From Strobilurus pachycystidiatus (Eukaryota; Basidiomycota; Agaricomycetes; Agaricales; Physalacriaceae), in NCBI GenBank assembly GCA_019915135.1, contig JAHLMK010000001.1:2666001-2730000 (forward strand): a stretch of DNA of 64,000 bases, written 5' to 3'. A program made the position numbers and the translations under genes. The first letter of the stretch is position 1. Every line of letters starts with the position of its first letter. Positions 44,778 through 47,218 of the stretch are shown here, piece after piece. The notes beneath the pieces were generated by a model. That model saw only the letters and a program-made list of their open reading frames with translations, ran no database searches and was not told where the DNA came from.

Positions 44778-44830
44778 GCTTGCTCTCTGTACGCATTTCC
44801 CCAAGTCCCCGCTACTTCTGCATATCCAAG

Positions 44831-46060
44831 ATGCTCAACCAAATATTCGCCCTCGCGACTATCATCAACTTTTACGCCTTCCCCCGCAACGTTAACAATG
44901 CCGCCTTTCGCACATCCGCCTACATAGTGGAAGATATCCCGACCGCCTCGCTCCCCATCGGTTACTCCAGCCTGTTCACAAACCTCTTGTGCATCTCCGC
45001 CTTTTTCGTCATCGGTCTCATCACTGTCACTGTCCTCCTCCGCCGCTCTACCGCCCTCATCCCACAACTCGCCCACAACGACGATGCGCCATCCACGTCC
45101 AACGCTGTCCACCACCATGATGCGCCGACCGTCGCGATTGTCGCCATTTACATGTTGATGGCCATCGCGTTGGCATTCTCCGCTATTGGCGCTGGGTTGT
45201 TGGTGGTATATGTCGCACGTGATGCAGACATTTCAGCCTGGGCCATTGTTCAACACGCCCTATCTGCATTCATCGTTTTGCTTGGAGCGTTCCATGGGCT
45301 TGATGAGAACCTTTGCATTGTCGCGTCCTCCGAGTCGGCACTGGCCACCACCACACTAATGTCGACCTCCGATGCAGTTGAAATTGACGAGAAAGATTTC
45401 GAGTCGGTACAGTCTGGTACGTCAATTTCTGAGGTCTCTGGGCTGATACTAATTACATGCGTAGCCGTCAAGGACGAACCTCATTCCCCATCCGTTGACG
45501 AAGCAGCCACCGTCAGCGAAGTCGCAGAATCTGAGACTCAAAATGGTACGTCGTTTCCATCGACTTATCAAACGAAATTAATCGCCTATCTCGTAGTCGA
45601 TAACGGCGACTCTCAGTCCACCACCGTTCATGAAGCAACCGCTCATCCTGCTACCGCTTCTGCCCCCGTTCCCGACCCTCGCCTCCAGATTTCAGTTGTC
45701 GAACCTGTGAAATCTTCCCAACCTGCCTCAGTTCCCCCTTCTCCCCCGAACTATGGCACTCTCCCCTCCTCTCTCCCCAGCTCGCCGTCGCCAACCCATA
45801 CCTCTGTGGACCAAACCCAACTTCCCAGTTCTTCCCCTTTGTTTGCTCAGGACCAGGATACTTCTCATGCTTCCTCCGACACCGACGAAGACGAAGACGA
45901 CGACGAGGAGCTAGAAGCCACTTTAGCCTTCTACGAACGCTACATCGATGCGAAGGTCTCTGGTGACACCGCAACGCAACTCGAACTTGGGGCACAAATA
46001 TGGCCTGAGAGATATAGGGGGGCGTGGCTTGTCTATAAAGAGAACCACGGCTGGGCATGA
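44831..46060 (+). CDS. Membrane protein with acidic Ser/Pro-rich tail, unknown function
   Basis: One frame stays open from 44831 to 46060. Helices are LFTNLLCISAFFVIGLITVTVLL, VAIVAIYMLMAIALAFSAIGAGLLVVYVA and AWAIVQHALSAFIVLLGAFHG, preceded by a hydrophobic N-terminus MLNQIFALATIINFYAF. The cytosolic part is rich in Ser, Pro, Thr, Glu and Asp, and ends in a compact block LEATLAFYERYIDAKVSGDTATQLELGAQIWPERYRGAWLVYKENHGWA. Two stretches inside the frame (about 45418-45465 and 45546-45596) have GTACGT donors and TAG acceptors, and lengths divisible by three. They look like introns, so the spliced product would be about 377 residues and the unspliced one about 410. No family was recognised. Confidence 0.65.
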   Translation: MLNQIFALATIINFYAFPRNVNNAAFRTSAYIVEDIPTASLPIGYSSLFTNLLCISAFFVIGLITVTVLLRRSTALIPQLAHNDDAPSTSNAVHHHDAPTVAIVAIYMLMAIALAFSAIGAGLLVVYVARDADISAWAIVQHALSAFIVLLGAFHGLDENLCIVASSESALATTTLMSTSDAVEIDEKDFESVQSGTSISEVSGLILITCVAVKDEPHSPSVDEAATVSEVAESETQNGTSFPSTYQTKLIAYLVVDNGDSQSTTVHEATAHPATASAPVPDPRLQISVVEPVKSSQPASVPPSPPNYGTLPSSLPSSPSPTHTSVDQTQLPSSSPLFAQDQDTSHASSDTDEDEDDDEELEATLAFYERYIDAKVSGDTATQLELGAQIWPERYRGAWLVYKENHGWA

Positions 46061-46390
46061 ACACGACTTGAATCTAGTGTAAGTTCTCATATTCAAAATC
46101 CTTTCGACTGTTTCTCAATTGTTCCCTCTTTCGTAGGTTTCTGACCTTGAGCCACTGTTGCTCTCTTTTCTCTTTTTTTTTTCGCCAGGGAATACCCCTC
46201 GCCACATCTCTCTTACTTTCCATTCTCGTATCTCGGCACACATCTACCACCTCTTCGCTCTCGCCACTTTCGGATACCGATCCCACTGCCACCCTTGCCG
46301 ACCATGCATTTTCACACGCATTCTCATCTCTCAACCACCAGTAACCAGTCAGCTCGCCTCTTCAACGACAATAACAAGACCCGGACGACC

Positions 46391-46521
46391 AGGAGCATCT
46401 CGCCGATGACTACCGAGCGCGTCACGCCGTTGTCTGTTATATGGCATCGATTAAAGATGGACGAAAGCGTCCCAGTCACACGACTGGGATTGTTTCCTAT
46501 CTTGTCGTTTTGCCGTCGTTG
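46391..46521 (+). ncRNA. Candidate structured RNA, copy 1
   Basis: This unit can fold as a long irregular hairpin. P1 pairs CGATGAC (46404-46410) with GTCGTTG (46515-46521). P2 pairs AAGATGG (46454-46460) with CTATCTT (46497-46503). P3 is an 8-bp stem TCCCAGTC/GACTGGGA with loop ACAC (46470-46489). P2 and P3 are joined by ACGAAAGCG on one side and TTGTTTC on the other, where GAAA and TTTC may also pair. The copy at 46575-46706 preserves these pairings through different bases. G-U pairs make sense only for plus-strand RNA. It could be a free RNA or a 3'-UTR element of the upstream gene; it matches no RNA family I know. Confidence 0.6.
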
Positions 46522-46574
46522 AACGCCACAGGCGAATTGTAGGTTTCACCGACAGGAAGAGGACATCTGCAGCC

Positions 46575-46706
46575 AGGAGCGTCTCCACGACGACTACCGA
46601 GTGCGCTGGACAGTGTCCTTTCCCCGTGGTTCCCGATTAAAGTTGGACGAAAGCGCTTTGGCCTCACGGCCAGGGTTGTTTCCTGACTTGTCGAGGAGCC
46701 GTCGTT
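46575..46706 (+). ncRNA. Candidate structured RNA, copy 2
   Basis: This is the second copy, starting 184 bp after the first. P1 pairs CGACGAC (46588-46594) with GTCGTTG (46700-46706). P2 pairs AAGTTGG (46639-46645) with CTGACTT (46682-46688). P3 is CTTTGGCC/GGCCAGGG with loop TCAC (46655-46674). Compared with copy 1, P3 shows four pairs changed on both strands (U-A to C-G twice, C-G to U-A, A-U to G-C) and two pairs changed from C-G to U-G. P2 has one double change (A-U to U-A) and one U-A to U-G. The internal loop ACGAAAGCG/TTGTTTC and the sequence GATTAAAG are unchanged. Confidence 0.6.
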
Positions 46707-47218
46707 GAAGTTTACTGGACTTGAGGTTTATGAGTTTGTATCTCGCTGAGGTTGCGTCTTGGGTGTATTTGGGTTTGCTGTCCGTTACTTGTTAGATCTG
46801 AGTAGAAGTTGTATGTATCAGTGTAGTGTCATTTGTCGAGTTTGCATTTTATTCCATTTATTTCTTGTCATCGTTTCAACTCTCTGGCGGTCGGGGCGCT
46901 CTTCCTGCGCGAAGATGTAAGTATGACACGATGGTGACTGAACCAAGGTCCGGTTTGGCCGCCCCATCAAAGGTCAATTGTGTTTAGCGTGATGGCGTCC
47001 CCATTGAAAAGACTGTTTCCGGGAAACTTCCATTCACCTGACCCCGTTCACGAACAATACGGCTGAGGCAAACACAATAGCGAGCCATCTGGGGCCATAC
47101 TGTGGAAGGTCTTTTTGTGTTGGTCCCTTCCCTGTTACACCACCACTGCATTCCGGCTTACGCAAGGGGCAGACAATAACATTGTTGTTGAACCCGTCAC
47201 TCAGGCGCTAGAGATCCC

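Follow-up and report, generated by a model that had tools for sequence, protein, structure and literature searches.

We found that two similar units in the 64-kb window (the whole stretch of DNA analysed here) belong to a family of doubled, structured RNA domains that lie behind protein-coding genes of four unrelated families in one fungal genome. Compensatory changes maintain the pairing of the main hairpin of these units beyond chance and relatedness, and the sequence comparisons presented below show that the whole block bearing the doubled domain has apparently moved between unrelated genes at least once. With slightly better than even confidence, we interpret the module as a transferable, tandem, structured 3′-UTR element acting in cis, and infer its molecular effect.

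The first-pass annotation had reported two copies within 46391..46706, and both were located there, 184–186 bp apart, with the listed changes present. Six of the eight Watson-Crick pairs of the terminal stem differ between the copies (GTCCCAGTC/GACTGGGAT at 46469–46490 versus GCTTTGGCC/GGCCAGGGT at 46655–46676), four by double changes and two by C-G to U-G, and the block GATTAAAG and the internal loop ACGAAAGCG/TTGTTTC are invariant between them. The upstream stop codon ends at 46060, 331 nt before 46391 (330 bp had been given). The location was thus right but the extent too narrow, as inclusion of the closing helix TTCAACGAC/GTCGTTGAA extends unit 1 to 46361–46523 and unit 2 to 46545–46709. 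The fold proposed at that stage was mainly the long hairpin P3, and the closing helix, a second arm, 18 further loci and the gene-to-gene transfer had been overlooked. Group-wise folding gave a three-way junction composed of the closing helix P1, the arm P2a-P2b and the hairpin P3, which on the 3′ side abuts P1 without an unpaired base. The features of the window module are as follows.

44780..46060, + strand: upstream ORF listed at 426 aa, looks by eye like a membrane protein, no Pfam family
46061..46360, + strand: pyrimidine-rich stretch from the stop codon to unit 1, by base composition
46361..46523, + strand: unit 1, whole three-way-junction domain, by fold, repeat and family alignment
46361..46369, + strand: unit 1 P1 5′ strand TTCAACGAC, pairs with 46515–46523
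46371..46376, + strand: unit 1 P2a 5′ strand ATAACA, pairs with TGTTAT
46384..46423, + strand: unit 1 hairpin P2b, GGAG-CATC / GATG-A-CT-A-CC with two one-sided bulged A, by folding and motif recognition
46435..46440, + strand: unit 1 P2a 3′ strand TGTTAT, by duplex energies
46443..46514, + strand: unit 1 P3, a long hairpin whose one-sided bulges and internal loop are conserved, 83 bits with the P3 covariance model R1, and covariation
46515..46523, + strand: unit 1 P1 3′ strand GTCGTTGAA, by folding and native-versus-crossed duplexes
46545..46709, + strand: unit 2 of the tandem pair, by fold, repeat and family alignment
46545..46553, + strand: unit 2 P1 5′ strand TTCACCGAC, one mismatch, pairs weakly with 46701–46709
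46555..46565, + strand: unit 2 P2a 5′ strand GGAAGAGGACA, −12.4 kcal/mol with TGTCCTTTCC
46570..46608, + strand: unit 2 hairpin P2b, by folding and motif recognition
46614..46623, + strand: unit 2 P2a 3′ strand TGTCCTTTCC, by duplex energies
46628..46700, + strand: unit 2 long hairpin P3, 80.2 bits with R1, and covariation
46701..46709, + strand: unit 2 P1 3′ strand GTCGTTGAA, by native-versus-crossed duplexes

Folded as a whole, the 370-nt region has a z of −5.29 with none of 100 shuffles as stable, and the single units folded alone reach only −2.2 and −2.4. Separately, positions 46080–46189, between the stop codon and unit 1, contain GTAAGT and a polypyrimidine-CAG sequence and could be a 3′-UTR intron.

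When the reported region was used as a DNA query on the fungus's own genome (51.8 Mb, 61 contigs), 14 matches were obtained, and two units were seen at each of ten loci whose surroundings were inspected. Family members were then located by three short patterns and an improved DNA query, all of which agree on 17 two-unit loci, giving a total of 19 loci and 36 units (35 distinct sequences), namely 17 exact tandem pairs and two single-unit loci. The latter, L067 and L068 on contig C1 (4335–4347 kb), are 98% identical over 341 nt and lie about 11 kb apart on opposite strands; they are inverted near-identical group-A gene copies, and their downstream sequence may hold a strongly altered second unit. 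R1, the covariance model of P3 built on 20 units, recovered all 36 at 63.8–106.2 bits, compared with 12 antisense hits at 12.0–18.8 bits, which agrees with the earlier assignment of the covarying structure to the plus strand; minimum energy does not settle the strand, the antisense being slightly lower in two of the four modules folded. R1 was scored on the located units rather than genome-wide, and further, more diverged copies may exist. Viral contigs searched with the 19-mer of the P3 3′ arm, UUGUUUCCUACUUGUCGAU, gave no match, a looser pattern found 18 contigs of which none matched R1 at E up to 10, and the prokaryote genomes searched gave no match. Two other repeats were encountered: one 21-mer occurs three times at exactly 8456-bp spacing (G000:C14:321863, 330319 and 338775) in a tandem array, perhaps of ribosomal DNA, and CGTAGAGTACAGATATGTGC, with ten unchanged occurrences on contigs C1, C2, C4, C7, C9, C14, C16 and C18, is a dispersed repeat.

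At all 19 loci the module lies downstream of a coding sequence on the same strand, beginning 36–389 nt past its stop codon. The upstream ORFs form four protein families, between which no similarity was detected at E 1e-4.

Family A: the window, L067 and L068; membrane-protein-like by eye; module in 3 of 3 members, both genomic paralogues of the window's upstream ORF also preceding the RNA
Group 1: subgroups 1a and 1b joined by a weak match; coiled-coil-like by eye; module in 4 of 4 members of 1a and 3 of 4 of 1b
Group 2: acidic, low-complexity proteins; module in 7 of 8 members, counted at E up to 1e-5
Zinc-finger family: C2H2; L089, a paralogue, matches zf-C2H2 at E 1e-7, and L054 and L055 show this exon by eye; module in 2 of 5 members

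In the five module-less family members, R1 found no unit over 1.3–1.9 kb downstream. The dN/dS ratios were 0.23–0.30 for the zinc-finger genes, 0.12–0.19 and 0.51–0.70 for the 1b exons, 0.49–0.58 for 1a and 0.29–0.66 for group 2, with 1.03 found in L059/L062, where the coding parts hardly differ. This indicates that the genes are real, since the ratio is below 1 in most comparisons (0.12–0.70 in 18 of 19). Pfam gave weak below-cut-off matches only for five flanking ORFs and none for the group-A paralogue L068, and no protein homologue reached E 0.001 among the candidates scored, which numbered 7995 (those with most words in common) for the upstream ORF of the window and 531 for the zinc-finger exon.

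To assess selection on P3, we examined its 26 pairs across the 36 units, where 98.5% of 908 pair cells are standard pairs in an alignment that, being fitted to the model, is biased towards structure, and where nine pairs show at least one double-sided change, 13 cells in total. Column shuffles gave 96.5% paired with 0.9 pairs and 0.9 cells having a double change (0/500 as high), and sliding the partners by 1–3 columns lowered P3 pairing to 33–61%. A tree-aware null was also used, which retains the tree, the changes per branch and the column rates and takes the reconstructed ancestor as root. Its paired fraction averaged 78% (0/1000 as high as observed), its pairs with a double change averaged 2.15 (0/1000 reaching 9) and its double-change cells 2.97 (5/1000 reaching 13); this ancestor-rooted null replaced a simulation from random root sequences (mean 3.1 cells, maximum 16, observed 13), which was unsuited. 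The covariation is clearest in the window's own units and in L067/L068, whose tip stem CACGACC/GGTCGTG is wholly unlike CCCTCGCC/GGCGGGGG. P3 is retained in 36 of 36 units, and its pairing is intact among these within-genome homologues. Compensatory changes therefore maintain pairing beyond chance and relatedness, so that the module is a structured RNA, and the selection on RNA structure claimed from two copies in the first-pass annotation now extends to 36 units at 19 loci and exceeds two nulls.

Within P3, hardly any variation is seen at the unpaired A positions or in the strand TTGTTTCCT-ACTTGTCG. MicroRNA-like precursors are hairpins of about 70 nt with small bulges, a shape like that of P3, and the 3′-arm 19-mer is kept exactly in 19 of the 36 units and with one mismatch in nine more, with the stem tip varying under compensation. 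However, the two arms, and the unpaired A positions on the 5′ side as well, are equally conserved, and the P2 arm, which is also conserved, would be left unexplained by a small-RNA precursor; we thus regard this reading of P3 as very improbable.

Beyond P3, the units appear to be three-way junctions whose two outer helices are less well supported. For P1, native duplexes beat crossed ones in the u2 units of group 1 (−18.7 versus −12.7 kcal/mol) and group 2 (−20.3 versus −15.0 kcal/mol), but not in other types, such as group-1 u1 (−14.0 versus −16.0 kcal/mol) or the window's unit 2 (−8.7 kcal/mol native versus a cross-type mean of −11.8). P1 is therefore supported for u2 of these two groups and tentative for u1. 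P2a reads GGAAC/GTTCC in group-1 u2 and GGACT/AGTCC in u1. In unit 1 of the window it is ATAACA/TGTTAT, a native duplex of −6.7 kcal/mol, and pairing its 5′ strand with 3′ strands taken from other groups yields −0.8 to −2.5; in this comparison, which covered 27 of the 36 units, the native combination was not the best in group-2 u2 units. P2b follows the consensus GGRG-CGTC / GACG-A-CT-A-CC with two bulged A, recognised in 24 of the 36 units and missing or unrecognised in 12, and its apical stem varies (CGTC/GACG, CATC/GATG, CGTTC/GAATG) and is broken in one unit.

A 3′-UTR element and a free RNA had been proposed side by side for the window's units, and the evidence leans to the 3′ UTR, with the free RNA still conceivable. 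As an independent noncoding RNA gene, the module would be transcribed by RNA polymerase II from a separate promoter within the pyrimidine-rich stretch and would owe its proximity to the genes to co-duplication. In the 150-nt segment 46150–46300, the pyrimidine content and C-minus-G excess are together equalled in just 0.016% of such segments on either strand. Ordinary 3′ regions do not resemble the stretch before unit 1, but the comparison set, four ordinary genes with both ends and three single ends, is too small to decide. All 17 paired loci measured have C-rich, G-poor upstream flanks and T/G-rich downstream flanks, which is the pattern of gene starts and ends. Moreover, two loci have retained the RNA beside a damaged coding part: the coding part of L056 has an in-frame stop, and in L057 an insertion of about 0.9 kb in the upstream gene (C10:510137–511079) splits the protein match near residue 93–95, with the RNA pair intact. 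Such observations count against the 3′-UTR reading. Nevertheless, at the zinc-finger loci unit 1 starts 36 nt past the stop codon, and the cassette extends upstream by only about another 95 nt, into the coding region, which leaves scant room for a shared promoter. A same-strand ORF ahead of the module at 19 of 19 loci is also unexpected for a free gene, although only the four gene families are independent, and no polymerase III pattern was found, with box A-like sequences in 1 and box B-like sequences in 2 of 19 modules and an early T-run absent from most. An independent gene is accordingly rather unlikely, though to be taken seriously. The stretch 46061..46360 would be the start of the 3′ UTR in the preferred reading and a promoter or 5′ leader in this rival one.

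The cassette and its boundaries are best seen in the zinc-finger genes L054 and L055, where the module lies inside a cassette of about 570 bp that begins at the end of the coding sequence. The zinc-finger modules are 75–85% identical to those of group 2 (L057–L062), but the upstream 650 nt are only 21–37% identical, which is the background level. L054 can be aligned with the module-less paralogue L089 in two parts, at 88% as far as L054 position 1352 and at 78% from position 1928 onwards; between the aligned parts, L054 has about 575 bp and L089 26 nt. In the zinc-finger genes the common block is bounded approximately by TCTATACCCAGC and CTCTAGCAT, and in group 2 its approximate ends are the same. 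The last codons and the new stop of L054 and L055 come from the block, with unit 1 following, and past the cassette the gene's own 3′ sequence, common to the module-less paralogue, resumes. The module thus sits between the coding sequence and the original 3′ region. Because the block occurs in other contexts, the L054/L089 difference is read as an insertion, although loss of the block from L089 is conceivable. Two further module-less fragments were read for empty sites: L092 (group 1b) is rearranged, and in L093 (group 2) similarity is lost close to the cassette start, which is ambiguous. Taken together, these alignments are what show the apparent transfer of the whole block between unrelated genes.

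That one locus pair shows the block can be inserted also raises the question of a transposon. Dimeric SINEs are a known kind of element, and a block of about 570 bp could be a small non-autonomous mobile element, SINE- or MITE-like and dimeric, whose fold served movement and whose position behind genes was tolerated. The filled and empty zinc-finger pair and the nearly coincident block ends in the group-2 genes are in line with this. On inspection by eye, however, the two L054/L089 junctions, whose sides are both diverged and partly deleted, showed no terminal inverted repeat, target duplication or A-tail. The block is present at merely 19 loci, old, diverged and always in sense orientation behind an ORF; 34 of the 36 units are paired, with no unpaired strays; all eight occurrences of the cassette's 3′ part adjoin units; and the fold is conserved even at loci 50–60% diverged. 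We found no likeness to a described transposon in a comparison made without a transposon library. A mobile element is therefore improbable. The internal box A and box B of a SINE, searched for by simple patterns, never occur together in the 19 modules.

The rates of change in P3 and in the coding parts were also compared. In the zinc-finger pair, P3 sites differ by 1.3–5.1% versus a dS of 0.27, and P3 is slower than synonymous sites in the group-1b exon-1 comparisons as well. In L049/L050 and L059/L062, it is not slower: divergence of the module there equals or exceeds that of the coding part, which is best explained by exchange between loci. L049 and L050 are 92% identical upstream and 78% in the module, and the L049 module is nearer to those of L047 and L051 (82%). 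Near-identical coding parts with differing modules may be signs of gene conversion or exchange. As side observations, dS is 0.10 for L049/L050 and 0.009 for L059/L062, yet divergence between the modules amounts to at least several per cent, and in all pairs similarity stops 300–450 nt past unit 2. In the 3′ flanks of group 2 (L057–L062), about 200–250 nt past the cassette end, a further hairpin TCGGG..GTGCACGCCTTCGGTGCAC..CCCGA is conserved, near-unchanged amid varying surroundings.

Based on the natural pair with and without the block, the four gene families, the single orientation and the hairpin under selection, a cis-acting 3′-UTR element is the simplest reading. The two units of the window would constitute one functional module of tandem structured RNA domains, each folding as a three-way junction with P1 as closing helix, the P2 arm and the long bulged P3, and the module would be transcribed within the mRNA of the upstream gene. 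The bulged P3 and its doubling may provide a platform that one trans-acting factor, most likely an RNA-binding protein, binds twice, and such binding could set the stability, translation or localisation of the carrier mRNAs together, so that a gene gaining the block would join a co-regulated group. A bolder version, which we put forward tentatively and consider possible, is a doubled RNA domain that recombination carries from one gene to another, unrelated one within a single fungal genome, each host gaining the same post-transcriptional control, possibly through a new class of fold that senses a ligand or protein. Described structured mRNA elements are few in fungal genomes. With 36 copies in one genome, located behind genes without exception, nearly always doubled and including a filled and empty version of one gene, the gain of 3′-UTR control by whole genes becomes directly testable. 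Should a protein or a small molecule prove to be bound by the three-way junction, the latter would represent a new class, and if the module stops an exonuclease, a trick best known from viruses would extend to cells.

As far as Rfam and the open-access literature reach, the family appears to be undescribed, in agreement with the first impression from the window. Rfam 15 (4227 families) had no match at gathering score in the 64-kb window, and a permissive search of three modules returned sn2343 (E 0.23) and RAGATH-32 (E 0.52, antisense), both at chance level and far below gathering. SECIS, TPP riboswitch and hammerhead were considered and set aside, none being reported by the Rfam searches, which were the sole test. 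No matching RNA element was found in the open-access literature, and in searches by exact sequence words the 8-mer GATTAAAG alone recurs among the matches listed.

Flavivirus-type exoribonuclease-resistant RNAs (xrRNAs) are defined by a ring-forming pseudoknot that blocks Xrn1. Like the tandem xrRNAs of flavivirus 3′ UTRs, the module consists of duplicated three-way-junction-like domains in a probable 3′ UTR, but it lies in cellular genes and has no sequence or Rfam match to them. Tandem riboswitches, such as the glycine type, likewise place two similar domains in a row on one mRNA; they occupy the 5′ regions of metabolic genes, whereas the module is 3′ of regulatory-looking or unknown genes and no ligand is suggested. 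Dimeric SINEs share two related structured RNA units travelling as one block, but the module has no polymerase III boxes or A-tail, few and old copies, and one orientation to genes. Among fungi, structured-RNA candidates with conserved folds adjoining genes have been found by covariation (Li and Breaker 2017, PMC5640933), and the module resembles these motifs as a conserved fungal RNA fold beside genes found in the same way. It differs in that the 15 motif headings of that paper, compared by headings and text rather than by consensus drawings, contain no tandem pair common to unrelated genes, and the word ‘tandem’ is absent from its main text. A structured cis-element is a known kind of RNA; the transferable, tandem form is the unusual part.
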